Of a stretch of 64,000 nt of DNA, positions 20,866 to 26,124 are shown piece by piece (positions within the stretch are counted from its first letter, which is position 1; each line of letters begins with the position of its first letter). The notes under the pieces were generated by a model, which was not told where the DNA came from, searched no databases, and worked only from the letters and a program-made list of their open reading frames with translations. The position numbers and the translations under genes were made by a program. The stretch is from Capnocytophaga periodontitidis (GTDB taxonomy: Bacteria; Bacteroidota; Bacteroidia; Flavobacteriales; Flavobacteriaceae): assembly GCF_016126015.1 (NCBI RefSeq), contig NZ_JAEFDB010000001.1, positions 558,001-622,000 on the forward strand, given 5' to 3'.

Positions 20866-22308
20866 TTAACGTTTTTCTCTTACTTTCTTCACTCTTTCAG
20901 GGCTTACTACGGTTTTATTGTTCTCCCAGTTGTGATATACGTAGGTGAGCACATCGGCTATTTGTTCTGGGGTAAGTGGTTGCGGAGGCATCATACTGTT
21001 GTACTGCTTGCCATTTACCGTAATCCCCCCCGTATGCCCTTTCAGTACGGTCTCTATTGCTCTGTCTACATCGGCATTCAGGTAGTCGGCTTTTGCTAAA
21101 GGCGGAAAAGCCCCTTCCAAGCCTTGTCCTTGCACCTGATGACAAGCAATACAAGTGCGTTGGTACACTTTTTTACCTTCTTCTATCTGTTGTGCTAGCG
21201 TTTTATTACTTGTTTCTTTAGTAGAGGTAGCTTCGTTAGTGGTCACTTGACTGTTTGTTACTTTAGCTTGATAAGGTACGGGGGCTTGCTTGCCATAAAT
21301 AACTGGATTTTCACGCCCTTGAGCAATGAGCTGTCCTAGTGCACCTTTATTGAAAGCACGGAAAATAGCGTGGTCTACCAAAGTATAAGAACCTGGTACT
21401 TCTACCTTAAATTCTACTATAGCTGCCCCACCTGCCGGAATAACAGTTGTTTGTACGTTTTCATTTACGAGCTTGCCCCCTTCCACCTGCACTCGGTCAA
21501 AGATTTCTCCTATCACGTGGAAAGAAGAAATGAGATTAGGTCCTCCATTCCCTACAAAAAGACGTACCGTTTCACCTGCATTCACTGTGAGGGCTTTATC
21601 GCCTGCTATAGCACCTACTTTCCCGTTGAAAAGCACATAATCAGGCTTCTCCGCAAGGGCTTTCTCCTGACTAAAGGCCTGTAATCCTTGAGCTCCGTAG
21701 TCTCCTTCTGTATAGAAATCGCCTTGCATCACATAATATTCCATATCTACTGGGGGCAAACCGCCTTCGGGCTCTACCAATATGAGTCCATACATCCCAT
21801 TAGCGATATGCAAAGGCACGGGCGCTTGAGCACAATGATATACAAAAAGCCCTGGGTTCAAACATTTAAAAGTAAAGGTGCGTTGCTGCCCTGGAGCTAC
21901 CAATGATGCATCAGCACCTCCTCCTGTTCCCGTTACTGCGTGAAGGTCGATATTGTGTGCTAATTTGTTATCTGGGTGATTTTTAAGTGTAAACGATACT
22001 TCATCGCCTACACGAGCTCGAATAAAACTCCCTGGCACTGTACCGCCAAATGTCCAAAAAAGGTACTTAGTTCCATCTGCCAATTCGCCTTCTTTCTCTA
22101 TGATTTCGAGGGTAACACTCAGTTTTGTAGCCTTCCGATTTCCTACTGGGGCAGGTACAAAAGGAGGTGAAGTAAGTTGGGCTACCATTTCCCCTTCTAC
22201 GGGAATATCAGTGGTAGAAGTATAAGTAGTTTGTTCATTACAAGCACTTAACAATAAAGAAGCACTCAATAGTAATAAATTGTATTTCATAAAATCTTTT
22301 CTCATCAT
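20866..22308 (-). CDS. nirK: Copper nitrite reductase NirK with C-terminal cytochrome c domain
   Basis: 480 residues. A lipobox (LLSAC, C23) predicts membrane anchoring. Two cupredoxin domains follow. Type 1 Cu ligands are H118, C159, H167 and M172; type 2 Cu ligands are H123, H158 and H313; catalytic Asp and His correspond to D121 and H264. A linker (350-375) leads to a cytochrome c domain with CIACH (386-390) and a Met axial candidate in MMPPQP. The enzyme reduces nitrite to NO in the periplasm, and the fused haem presumably feeds electrons directly. Several ATGs (22308, 22305, 22290) are possible starts. No nor genes are visible in the window. Confidence 0.95.
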   Translation of the reverse strand: MMRKDFMKYNLLLLSASLLLSACNEQTTYTSTTDIPVEGEMVAQLTSPPFVPAPVGNRKATKLSVTLEIIEKEGELADGTKYLFWTFGGTVPGSFIRARVGDEVSFTLKNHPDNKLAHNIDLHAVTGTGGGADASLVAPGQQRTFTFKCLNPGLFVYHCAQAPVPLHIANGMYGLILVEPEGGLPPVDMEYYVMQGDFYTEGDYGAQGLQAFSQEKALAEKPDYVLFNGKVGAIAGDKALTVNAGETVRLFVGNGGPNLISSFHVIGEIFDRVQVEGGKLVNENVQTTVIPAGGAAIVEFKVEVPGSYTLVDHAIFRAFNKGALGQLIAQGRENPVIYGKQAPVPYQAKVTNSQVTTNEATSTKETSNKTLAQQIEEGKKVYQRTCIACHQVQGQGLEGAFPPLAKADYLNADVDRAIETVLKGHTGGITVNGKQYNSMMPPQPLTPEQIADVLTYVYHNWENNKTVVSPERVKKVREKR

Positions 22309-22347
22309 TATAGTACCAAATTATATAGAACCAATTAAAATACGGGG

Positions 22348-22355
22348 CAAATATA
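22348..22355 (-). promoter_or_regulatory. -7 element upstream of nirK
   Basis: TATATTTG on the minus strand, 40 nt before the nirK start. There is no good -33 TTG, which would suit a promoter needing an activator. I see no clear FNR- or NsrR-type palindrome. Confidence 0.5.
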
Positions 22356-22395
22356 ATACTTTTTGTCTAATAATCCTCATTACAATACTATTTTA

Positions 22396-22601
22396 ACGTG
22401 AGTTCGATATAACAGAACATTGATTTACAATTTTGTAACATAATATATTTACAAAATAATTCACCGTCAGGTGAAAATTCGTGAGATAATAAAAAATAAA
22501 GACTTTTATGCACTCCCAATTTCGTGAAAATTCGTGTAATTCGTGGGAGATTAAAAAATATTTTACTGATTGTTAAATAATTACTTACGCCGAACTCACG
22601 T
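22396..22601 (+). mobile_element. MITE-like element, copy 1 (206 bp)
   Basis: Perfect 11-bp terminal inverted repeats, ACGTGAGTTCG (22396-22406) and CGAACTCACGT (22591-22601), are flanked by a 7-bp direct repeat TATTTTA (22389-22395 and 22602-22608). There is no coding capacity. The interior matches the element at 25300 over both ends. It lies between nirK and the PspC gene. Confidence 0.85.
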
Positions 22602-22633
22602 TATTTTACCAATTACCCGTACAGTTCGCACCA

Positions 22634-22855
22634 CTAAAGGTCAAACACAGAAGTCCGTTTCACAAAAAACACATCCTTAATTCTCAATAAAGAAGCCAAT
22701 AATAGATATATACCAAAACCAGCCCCTAAAGTAGCAAAAGTACCATAAATGAAGAAAATACGCACATCTTTAGCGCGTACACCTAATTTCTCAGCCAATC
22801 GTGCCGATACTGCAAAGCCATATTTCTCTAAAAAAAATCTAACCTTTGAAATCAT
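22634..22855 (-). CDS. PspC-domain small membrane protein
   Basis: 73 residues: an N-terminal RFFLEKYGFAVSARLAEKLG segment, then one hydrophobic helix (about 32-57) and a basic tail ending KRTSVFDL. This is the single-domain PspC layout seen in Bacteroidota, normally annotated as a PspC-family regulator. It is membrane-bound, and the function in this phylum is unclear. Its start overlaps the end of the MFS gene by 17 bp, so it is the last gene of that operon. Confidence 0.75.
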   Translation of the reverse strand: MISKVRFFLEKYGFAVSARLAEKLGVRAKDVRIFFIYGTFATLGAGFGIYLLLASLLRIKDVFFVKRTSVFDL

Positions 22856-24176
22856 TTGTTACCCGTTGTTTGCTTGTCTTAAAAAGTAGAATTATGCCAA
22901 GTCCGAAGAAAATAATCAATGAGATAGTCGCATTTCGCATATTATTCGTAAATTGGTCAATGAGTCCATAAACCCCCATTCCTATAACTATCCCTATTTT
23001 TTCAGTCACATCGTAAAAACTGAAGAAAGAAGTTGTATCTTTAGTATCAGGCAAATAAGCCGAATAAGTAGAGCGAGAAAGCGTTTGTATGCCCCCCATT
23101 ACAAGTCCTACTAAGGTAGCTATGATGTAGAATTGTATCGGTTTATACACGTAATATGAAAGTAAGCAAATTCCTACCCATATAGCATTGAGTCCTATTA
23201 ACACCCAAATATTTCCCCATTTGCGCACTGCAATAACTGTGAGTCGTGCTCCTACTATAGCCACTAATTGAATTATAAGCACACTCACTATTAGTCCTAT
23301 AGTACTTTCTTCAGCACTCGCCCATTGTATTTCTTGTTCTCCAAAATAGGTAGCTACCAGCATTACGGTTTGCACTCCCATACTATATACAAAAAAAGCA
23401 ATGAGATACCATTTCAATCGTGGCGAAGTAGTGAGTTGTTGCCATACTTTCCGTAATTCCTTAAATCCATTAAAAAAAATACTCTTGGTAACTTTAGCTC
23501 CATTTTTCTTATGTGATGGAAGGTAGTAAAAAGGAATACTACTGAACCCTATCCACCATACTCCTACTGTGATAAACGAAATCCGCATCGTCGTGAGTGT
23601 CGTTTCGGTATCAGTAGTAGTAAAACCTATCCATTCAGGTTTCATCACCATTATCAAATTGAAAATCAATAGCAACACACTCCCCGCGTAGCCTAAACTA
23701 TAACCTTTAGCACTTACTGCATCGTATTGTTCAGGCAGAGCAATATCTGGCAAATAGGAATTGTAAAATACTATACTTCCCCAAAAACCTACTACCCCAC
23801 AAAAATAGCAAAATAAACTAAAATAGATGTGTTCTAACGAAAACCAGTACAATCCTATACACGAAATTGCTCCAATATAGCAAAAAAAGCGCATAAATGT
23901 TTTTTTGTTGCCTAAATAGTCGGCTATACCACTCAAAATAAGCGAGAGTACCACCACCACAGCAAAAGCCAAAGCGGTTACAAAAGCGATTACCGATGTA
24001 CTTTTGATTATCATCCCAAAAAGGGATATATGGGTAAGCCCTGCAGTGCGAAATAATAGTCCGTAAAAAATAGGAAAAACAGTGGAAACGATGGTAAGTG
24101 AATATACTGAGTTTGCCCAGTCATAAAACGCCCAAGCGTTGAGTAGTTTTTTATTGCCTCTTTCTAATCTATTCAT
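22839..24176 (-). CDS. MFS transporter, UMF1 (Atg22-like) family
   Basis: 445 residues with about 12 hydrophobic helices. The N-terminal signature LNAWAFYDWANSVYSLTIVSTVFP and the later QTLSRSTYSAYLPD are characteristic of the UMF1/Atg22-like branch of the major facilitator superfamily. The substrate is not known; fungal Atg22 exports amino acids from vacuoles, but transfer of that role here would be a guess. It is 3 bp downstream of the DUF368 gene and overlaps the PspC gene. Confidence 0.85.
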   Translation of the reverse strand: MNRLERGNKKLLNAWAFYDWANSVYSLTIVSTVFPIFYGLLFRTAGLTHISLFGMIIKSTSVIAFVTALAFAVVVVLSLILSGIADYLGNKKTFMRFFCYIGAISCIGLYWFSLEHIYFSLFCYFCGVVGFWGSIVFYNSYLPDIALPEQYDAVSAKGYSLGYAGSVLLLIFNLIMVMKPEWIGFTTTDTETTLTTMRISFITVGVWWIGFSSIPFYYLPSHKKNGAKVTKSIFFNGFKELRKVWQQLTTSPRLKWYLIAFFVYSMGVQTVMLVATYFGEQEIQWASAEESTIGLIVSVLIIQLVAIVGARLTVIAVRKWGNIWVLIGLNAIWVGICLLSYYVYKPIQFYIIATLVGLVMGGIQTLSRSTYSAYLPDTKDTTSFFSFYDVTEKIGIVIGMGVYGLIDQFTNNMRNATISLIIFFGLGIILLFKTSKQRVTNDFKG

Positions 24177-24179
24177 AGT

Positions 24180-25127
24180 TTAGTGTTTTTTACTGCGTTT
24201 GTTACTCCATTTTTCGAGTAGATAAATCACTAAAAAACCTGCTATTGCTAATAGTACAGCAATGAATATTTGAGGTTCTGTATGGGTGACTTCTTTAAAA
24301 GTACAGGGCGATATGCTCTTTTCCCACACTGCCACAGCATTGCCTTGAGCATCTGTATCCCATTTCAAAACCTCTTTCCAAGGCCATACTTTGTTTAGCG
24401 ACCCCACGATAAAACCAGTCAACCCTGCAAAAGTAAGAGTCCGATATTTAGCAAACAACCATTTCAGCGCCTTAGAAAAACTTAAAATACCCGTGATTGC
24501 TCCTACCCCAAAAACACTTATGAGTTTAAAATTCCACGAACTCAAAGCGTCTAAAACTGTGTGATAAGCTCCTAACAGCACCAATATAAAAGCTCCTGAA
24601 ATCCCTGGTAATATCATCGCGCAAATAGCCAAAGCTCCACAGAAGAAAATAAATATCAAATTCTGGTTACCACCATTCACTAAGGGTGGAATAACCGTAA
24701 TAAAATAAGCAACTCCCCCCGATATGAGCATCACGAGTATTGTAGCTAAATTCCAACGATTGATTTCTTTTATCAAAAAAAGTACGCTGGCTATCATCAA
24801 CCCAAAGAAAAAAGCCCATATCATTATAGGTTCATTTTCTAAAAGCCATTTCATCCCTTTGGCAAGCGATATGATGCTAACCCCTATCCCTGCCAAGAGT
24901 GCTACAAAAAAATTACCATTAATATGTTTCCAAAAAGCTACAATCCCTTTGCTGAATAAAAGCTTAAATGCTTGTAAATTGATCTTGCTAATAGACCCTA
25001 CAAGCTCTTCATAAATCCCCGATATAAAGGCTATGGTACCCCCAGAAACTCCTGGTACAACATCGGCTGCTCCCATTGCCATTCCTTTGGAAGTAATAAA
25101 TAAATAATCTAAAAAATTGCGTTTCAT
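24180..25127 (-). CDS. DUF368-family membrane protein (polyprenyl-phosphate transporter family)
   Basis: 315 residues and about eight to ten hydrophobic helices. The opening GMAMGAADVVPGVSGGTIAFISGIYE and the repeated motif AMILPGISGAFILVLLGAY are the DUF368 signatures. Characterised DUF368 members (PopT type) recycle undecaprenyl phosphate across the cytoplasmic membrane for cell-wall synthesis, so that is the likely role. It heads a three-gene operon with the MFS and PspC genes. A -7 element lies at 25164-25171. Confidence 0.88.
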   Translation of the reverse strand: MKRNFLDYLFITSKGMAMGAADVVPGVSGGTIAFISGIYEELVGSISKINLQAFKLLFSKGIVAFWKHINGNFFVALLAGIGVSIISLAKGMKWLLENEPIMIWAFFFGLMIASVLFLIKEINRWNLATILVMLISGGVAYFITVIPPLVNGGNQNLIFIFFCGALAICAMILPGISGAFILVLLGAYHTVLDALSSWNFKLISVFGVGAITGILSFSKALKWLFAKYRTLTFAGLTGFIVGSLNKVWPWKEVLKWDTDAQGNAVAVWEKSISPCTFKEVTHTEPQIFIAVLLAIAGFLVIYLLEKWSNKRSKKH

Positions 25128-25163
25128 AACAATTTATAATGTCTCTTTCTAACTTAAACGGCG

Positions 25164-25171
25164 CAAAGATA
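25164..25171 (-). promoter_or_regulatory. -7 element of the DUF368 operon
   Basis: TATCTTTG on the minus strand, 37 nt upstream of the DUF368 start. No clear -33 TTG. Confidence 0.55.
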
Positions 25172-25299
25172 ATAATATTTTGCTAATTAATAGTCTATCT
25201 GTATTGATTTACAAATTTTTCGTTCTATACTATCCGTGTAATTCCAGTAGCGTTTGCTGCCATAATATATATTCTTTACGTCTAACTCTCATTAAGTTA

Positions 25300-25442
25300 A
25301 CGTCAGTTCGATATAACAGAACATTGATTTACAGCTTTGTAACATAATATATTCACAAAATAATTCACCGTTAGGTGAAAATTCGTGGGAGATTAAAAAT
25401 ATTTTACTGATTGTTAAATAATTACTTACACCGAACTTACCT
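25300..25442 (+). mobile_element. MITE-like element, copy 2 (143 bp)
   Basis: Ends ACGTCAGTTCG (25300-25310) and CGAACTTACCT (25432-25442), diverged forms of the copy 1 termini. They are flanked by a perfect 7-bp direct repeat TAAGTTA (25293-25299, 25443-25449). The interior is nearly identical to copy 1 but lacks about 63 bp between two GTGAAAATTCGTG repeats. Same orientation as copy 1. Confidence 0.82.
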
Positions 25443-25590
25443 TAAGTTACATTGTAGGAGGGGCTAAAAGTCTCAAAATCGTATTTGTATCTACTTTACT
25501 CGTCTTAAAAAACTCTAAGATTCTCCAAAAAAAACACCTAATAGGAAACCTTACAATAAGTTAATCAATAAATTTTTCTATCCATCAAAT

Positions 25591-25621
25591 TTGTTAATTT
25601 GCTAATTACTTCGTATCTTTG
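25591..25621 (+). promoter_or_regulatory. Promoter of cdd
   Basis: TTG (25591-25593), 20 nt, TATCTTTG (25614-25621), 20 nt before the ATG at 25642. Confidence 0.74.
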
Positions 25622-25641
25622 CAAAATAAAAGCATTTTCTT

Positions 25642-26124
25642 ATGAAAACGGAACATCAATTACATATCAAATATAATGTTTTCAATAAATTAACCGACCT
25701 GCCTGAAAAAGCTCTAAACTTGATGAAACAAGCAATAACCACTCGCGAAAAGGCTTACGCCCCTTACTCTAAATTCAAAGTGGGTGCCGCTGTTTTACTT
25801 AAAAACGGACAAACTTTCGTAGGCTCCAATCAGGAAAATGCTGCCTACCCCTCAGGTCTTTGCGCCGAAAGAGTCGCTATATACCAAGCCGCTACCCAGT
25901 ATCCCGACGAGGAAATCGAAATGATCGCAATCTCTGGATCTGCCCAAGACCCTACAGCCTTTCCCGTATCGCCTTGTGGAGCTTGCCGCCAGTCGCTCTC
26001 CGAATACGAAACCAAACAAAAAAAACTTATCCCCGTCTATTTTATGGGAGCTGAAGGCGAAATCGTTCAAACTGAATCTATTAAAGACCTCCTGCCTTTC
26101 CTTTTCGATGGTAGCCTAATGTAA
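25642..26124 (+). CDS. cdd: Cytidine deaminase
   Basis: 160 residues, the tetrameric-type length. Zinc and catalytic residues are C74 and E76 in SGLCAERVAI plus C112 and C115 in SPCGACRQ, and the substrate segment is GSNQENAAYP. It converts cytidine or deoxycytidine to uridine or deoxyuridine in pyrimidine salvage. First gene of a plus-strand series, followed 26 bp later by the KdsD-like gene. Confidence 0.93.
   Translation: MKTEHQLHIKYNVFNKLTDLPEKALNLMKQAITTREKAYAPYSKFKVGAAVLLKNGQTFVGSNQENAAYPSGLCAERVAIYQAATQYPDEEIEMIAISGSAQDPTAFPVSPCGACRQSLSEYETKQKKLIPVYFMGAEGEIVQTESIKDLLPFLFDGSLM

Follow-up and report, generated by a model that had tools for sequence, protein, structure and literature searches.

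The window (the whole stretch of DNA analysed here, 64,000 nucleotides long) contains, a few kilobases apart, two short repeats, each framed by its own pair of direct repeats. The corresponding features are as follows:

22389..22395, no strand: TATTTTA, target duplication to the left of copy 1
22396..22601, + strand: MITE copy 1, 206 bp, non-coding and intergenic, its first and last 11 bp (22396-22406 and 22591-22601) forming perfect terminal inverted repeats
22602..22608, no strand: TATTTTA, target duplication to the right of copy 1
25293..25299, no strand: TAAGTTA, target duplication to the left of copy 2
25300..25442, + strand: MITE copy 2, 143 bp, of the same family as copy 1, shortened by an internal deletion that falls between AATTCGTG repeats, with divergent genes on either side
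25443..25449, no strand: TAAGTTA, target duplication to the right of copy 2

The original prediction had placed both copies, their ends (perfect 11-bp repeats in the first copy, diverged forms in the second) and their respective TATTTTA and TAAGTTA flanks exactly to the base. The inverted ends of copy 1 extend to 13 bp when the flanking TA is included, while the diverged inverted repeats of copy 2 read ACGTCAGTTCG and CGAACTTACCT. Between the two copies, identity reaches 92% over 103 nt and 91% over 56 nt, in stretches that take in a few flanking bases. Copy 2 represents a family member with a deletion: the 62 bp that it lacks are located, in copy 1, between two AATTCGTG direct repeats, and recombination between these short direct repeats would account for their loss. 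No stop-free run exceeds 68 aa in copy 1 or 47 aa in copy 2; there is therefore no room for a transposase in either, as had been predicted.

A transporter gene lies between the two copies, and its protein is 95% identical to the counterpart in C. sputigena NCTC11653. Copy 1, which begins at 22396, is found just upstream of a gene at 20866-22308 (start at 22308) that displays multicopper oxidase domains and a C-terminal cytochrome c, and which we take, from our own reading of these domains, to resemble a copper nitrite reductase. Just upstream of a cytidine deaminase gene, a short sequence (25586-25622) matches many places across the genus, and possibly represents a shared promoter-like or repeat motif.

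Size and spread of the family

The genome to which the window belongs (3.23 Mb in 55 contigs, hereafter the own genome), that of an oral relative of C. sputigena, was searched with copy 1 by BLAST. This search retrieved 47 pieces, the shortest of 27 bp, which merge into at least 39 places, 24 of which span 140 bp or more; the count of 39 is possibly incomplete, with 40 of the 77 first-look candidates scored. The further copies expected from the two in the window were thus recovered, with duplications of their own. Across 31 genomes, matches to copy 1 were detected in seven (own genome included), all of them Capnocytophaga, with 25 pieces in G014, taken to be C. sputigena NCTC11653; subfamilies with the same ends and other lengths occur in G015 and G017. 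One insertion (L006) is common to the own genome and C. sputigena at the same TACTTA, in loci that are 93% identical over 2.6 kb. Because this insertion is shared, part of the MITE family is older than the split from C. sputigena.

A 19-base end pattern that includes the TA, with one mismatch allowed, was then found in 12 of 196 genomes of the order (own genome included), and its reversed control yielded no match among the matches listed for these 196 genomes. Ten end pairs could be considered in six of the pattern-positive genomes: five display a duplication of 6-7 bp (four of the form TAnn(n)TA and one TTATTA, at L292), one a 5-bp TAATA (L298) and the other four 0-2 bp. These pattern matches and duplications outside the genus indicate that the end type and, partly, the target form are wider than Capnocytophaga. 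No match to the MITE DNA was retrieved from a plasmid collection, and no partner was found for ten single ends when one was sought through matching duplications.

Two copies from two different species (L013:1496-1728 and L221:1550-1783) contain nearly the same extra interior insert of 28 bp within different flanks. This seems to be a sublineage that moved carrying its insert.

A repeat of this kind might also be kept for a function in the host, as an RNA hairpin, a terminator or a regulatory element, its spread being secondary; such a role would be compatible with a MITE, and we consider it improbable. Indeed, none of 21 copies examined in the own genome is located within an ORF of 100 aa or more, as a host function would lead one to expect, but insertions that survive selection are in any case expected to lie between genes. 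Compared with shuffled sequences, copy 1 folds better on its + strand (z -4.59, against a weaker z of -2.74 for the other strand), and all 18 aligned copies share an unchanged hairpin, TTCACC/GGTGAA. However, a compensatory change affects only one of the 36 predicted pairs (covariation term -0.28), invariant pairs are uninformative either way, and the ends of the element themselves pair in the fold. The region 22200-25700 gave no Rfam match, and the MITE consensus has no exact TAnnTTTG box, the promoter box of Bacteroidota, on either strand. We saw no evidence of a host function.

Target duplications and empty sites

To describe the target form, end pairs were scored without any condition on their flanks, no TA being required at the borders. 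At loci of the own genome (G000), G014, G015 and G017, 34 end pairs were obtained, 14 of them with a 6-bp and 9 with a 7-bp duplication. Three chance pairings (L027, L070 at 1069 and L071 ending 2529) were dropped, as was L066, since it represents the insertion already counted as L006. Across these four genomes, an exact duplication of 6-7 bp is present in 22 of the 30 distinct end pairs that are left (6 bp in 13 cases, 7 bp in nine), the remaining eight displaying matches of 0-3 bp. Duplications flank 13 of the 15 complete copies in the own genome. Every one of the 22 duplications starts and finishes with TA, in the form TA-N2-TA or TA-N3-TA. The 7 bp of the original prediction hence apply to both window copies, but 6-bp duplications have to be added for the family as a whole. 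This TA-N2-3-TA target is the least expected part of our results, and a few relatives elsewhere depart from it.

AT-rich flanks favour short matches, and it could be argued that the window merely holds two unrelated AT-rich repeats flanked by short direct repeats through accident. In a control which preserves the TA preference of the flanks, the left flank of one copy was paired with the right flank of another, and matches of at least 6 bp were obtained in 70 of 870 pairings. Yet the family occupies at least 39 places in the genome, 22 of 30 pairs are duplicated and empty sites exist; the explanation by chance is refuted by these observations, and we grant it virtually no probability.

The empty sites concern a single copy, L003. 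Nine places aligned to it in five genomes (G002, G007, G011, G014 and G017), and seven of them continue across the site with a single TATTATA and without the MITE, one being altered and one not scored. L003 itself borders a multi-copy element whose genes are IS4/IS5-like (the Pfam matches exceed their cut-off, the NCBIfam IS5 match falls short of its own). For the window copies, both C. sputigena sites are devoid of the element, but the spacers, once the element and one duplication are subtracted, differ in length (89 versus 37 bp and 280 versus 189 bp) as well as in sequence, and these sites were not counted as clean empty sites. The same decision was taken for L010: four of five genomes contained its left flank and three contained both flanks, the spacers being unequal. 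The empty sites expected in relatives were consequently obtained for L003, with one TATTATA; no clean empty site was found for the window copies. As for the broader claim that the two copies represent a MITE with separate insertions, it is borne out by the many further copies with duplications of their own, by the empty sites of L003 and by the full-length elements with matching ends that are described below.

IS982-family elements as the probable source of the transposase

A helper had been postulated elsewhere in the genome, and transposases were assigned to their family through PF13612 and NF033520. IS982 genes do occur in the own genome, but only two were found, both truncated (detected by PF13612, with NF033520 below its cut-off). 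Each begins 69 bp inside a MITE-like end; both are 98% identical to an element of another species (G012) as far as a shared breakpoint, at which they end, and the second is also frame-split. As only these two truncated IS982 genes were seen, the MITEs look orphaned in their own genome.

Each remnant (L081:2927-3975 and L077:894-1943) is located beside a DUF4280-type gene. One neighbour was recognized as DUF4280 by Pfam and the other differs at 3 of 118 translated positions, as if the remnants had been duplicated together with this gene. A piece of the second remnant gave below-cut-off matches to an unrelated phosphatase model; these were taken as chance and the assignment was rejected.

Among 20 Capnocytophaga genomes, PF13612 was detected in six (10 matches in total), and only the two copies of G012 are full length between MITE-type ends. 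These IS982-family copies, both of 1033 bp and three bases apart, have the end types ACGTGAGTTCGACGTAAG and ACGTGAGTTCGATTTAAG; their reading frame is interrupted, leaving pieces of 79 and 212 aa, and their own flanks show no matching duplication. The full-length transposon with the same ends that had been anticipated was hence found twice, in another species, but with a broken frame, and none of the 20 Capnocytophaga genomes yielded an open-frame helper with MITE-type ends. A search of the plasmid collection with the remnant protein returned 258 records, all below 60% identity.

Both ends of the MITE are matched, in the right order, by the G012 element: MITE positions 180-206 correspond to IS positions 29-1 (86% over 29 bp) and MITE positions 1-17 to IS positions 1033-1017 (94%), with no clear similarity to this element in the MITE interior beyond about 18-29 bp. 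On the strength of this sequence likeness, the MITE family appears descended from IS982-type elements; its 'CGTAAG' end would derive from the IS982 end upstream of the transposase and its 'ATATAA' end from the downstream one.

Other partial elements were met in the genus. In G002, a short stretch at L254:1501-1664 fuses roughly the initial 105 bp of an IS982-like sequence to its final 32 bp, without an established duplication, and this arrangement may be a MITE being born via internal deletion. A stretch of G004 displays IS982-like ends around a run of N.

Elsewhere in the order, the genome G156 yielded 11 PF13612 matches, seven of which are 1031-bp copies, 0-5 bases apart, with an open frame of 317 codons. 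All seven full-length copies are bordered by TAnn(n)TA duplications of 6-7 bp, and their ends (ACCTGAGTTCGG) differ slightly, at a few positions, from those of the MITE. One copy was scored by NCBIfam and is affiliated to IS982 (265.6 bits versus a cut-off of 130); its protein is 45.5% identical to an own-genome remnant over 167 aa. Other candidates depart from TAnn(n)TA, with a 5-bp TTAGA at L271 of G115, which has an open frame, no duplication at L272 of G110, and 1-2 bp at L273 and L276 of G151.

Similar short duplications are left by other transposases (IS5-, IS4- or IS1595-like), one of which could have moved the MITE, the likeness to IS982 being then a coincidence. IS4/IS5-like elements do exist in the genomes examined, with one MITE copy at the edge of one of them, and MITEs of Porphyromonas gingivalis match IS5-family ends, according to the available part of PMC4596501. 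Nevertheless, both MITE ends are matched, in the correct order, by a full-length IS982 element, and IS982 copies elsewhere have the same TAnn(n)TA duplications; we regard another mover as very unlikely. We are highly confident that copies 1 and 2 belong to one non-autonomous MITE family, moved in trans by an IS982-family DDE transposase. In this mechanism, the IS982 transposase would cut the MITE ends and, to judge from the duplications, make staggered cuts in the target just outside two TA steps lying 2-3 bp apart. With the decay of its helper, the family would have been stranded in its own strain.

A candidate target rule and comparison with known systems

More tentatively, and with slightly more doubt than conviction, we propose that this IS982 subgroup follows a two-TA target rule. 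The cuts would be made outside two TA steps 2 or 3 bp apart, so that the target, and not the enzyme, would set the choice between 6 and 7 bp, and each insertion would rebuild a fresh target on both sides; MITEs using this rule would have reached several genera of the order, the helper dying out in some hosts. A TAnnnTA duplication is itself a target, and a second copy can therefore land beside a first one. In the own genome (G000), tandem MITE units in the same orientation, with a single 7-bp TATATTA between them, were observed at the end of contig C2 (L012:1501-1772) and at the start of contig C6 (L021:1-173), and are perhaps one array that broke the assembly. Units separated in this way fit adjacent landing, although slippage between duplications would do likewise; if the two-TA rule is true, their 7-bp TATATTA spacer is explained.

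IS982-derived MITEs have already been published in Cardinium (PMC9769881). By description, rather than by sequence comparison, the Capnocytophaga family resembles them, as the accessible part of that account presents short (about 240 bp) non-coding elements of a Bacteroidota member, with IS982-like ends and many, mostly intergenic, copies. Unlike the own Capnocytophaga genome and its truncated IS982 genes, Cardinium is described there as having seven intact copies of the parental ISCca4. Neither a target form nor empty sites were seen in that part of the account.

The portion of the IS982 family review available to us (PMC7335449) states that the ends start with AC in 57 of 69 elements, and that direct repeats, where present, measure 2-10 bp (7 for IS1187, 6 for ISCca4). 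The Capnocytophaga MITE agrees with IS982, IS1187 and ISCca4 in its AC ends, and many members of the family have direct repeats of 6-8 bp; IS982 family elements, in contrast, carry a transposase. The term MITE and the TA-N2-3-TA rule were both absent from this portion of the review.

Oral Bacteroidota also include P. gingivalis, where BrickBuilt and MITE239/MITE700 are likewise non-autonomous miniature elements with inverted ends, as far as the text available from PMC4596501 goes. They differ in their IS5-family ends and, for BrickBuilt, in internal repeats of 23 nt and 4-bp duplications. In the open-access literature searched, part of it available as extracts, we found no description of miniature inverted repeats in Capnocytophaga and saw no TA-N2-3-TA rule for IS982 target sites. 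IS982-derived MITEs being known already, this rule is the part that a specialist might not expect.

A Capnocytophaga repeat family is in this way tied to a specific transposase family, with a sharp target rule that is testable in vitro. For genome annotation, it accounts for dozens of repeats and perhaps for some assembly breaks. The family is likely a case of MITEs left behind once their helper had decayed.
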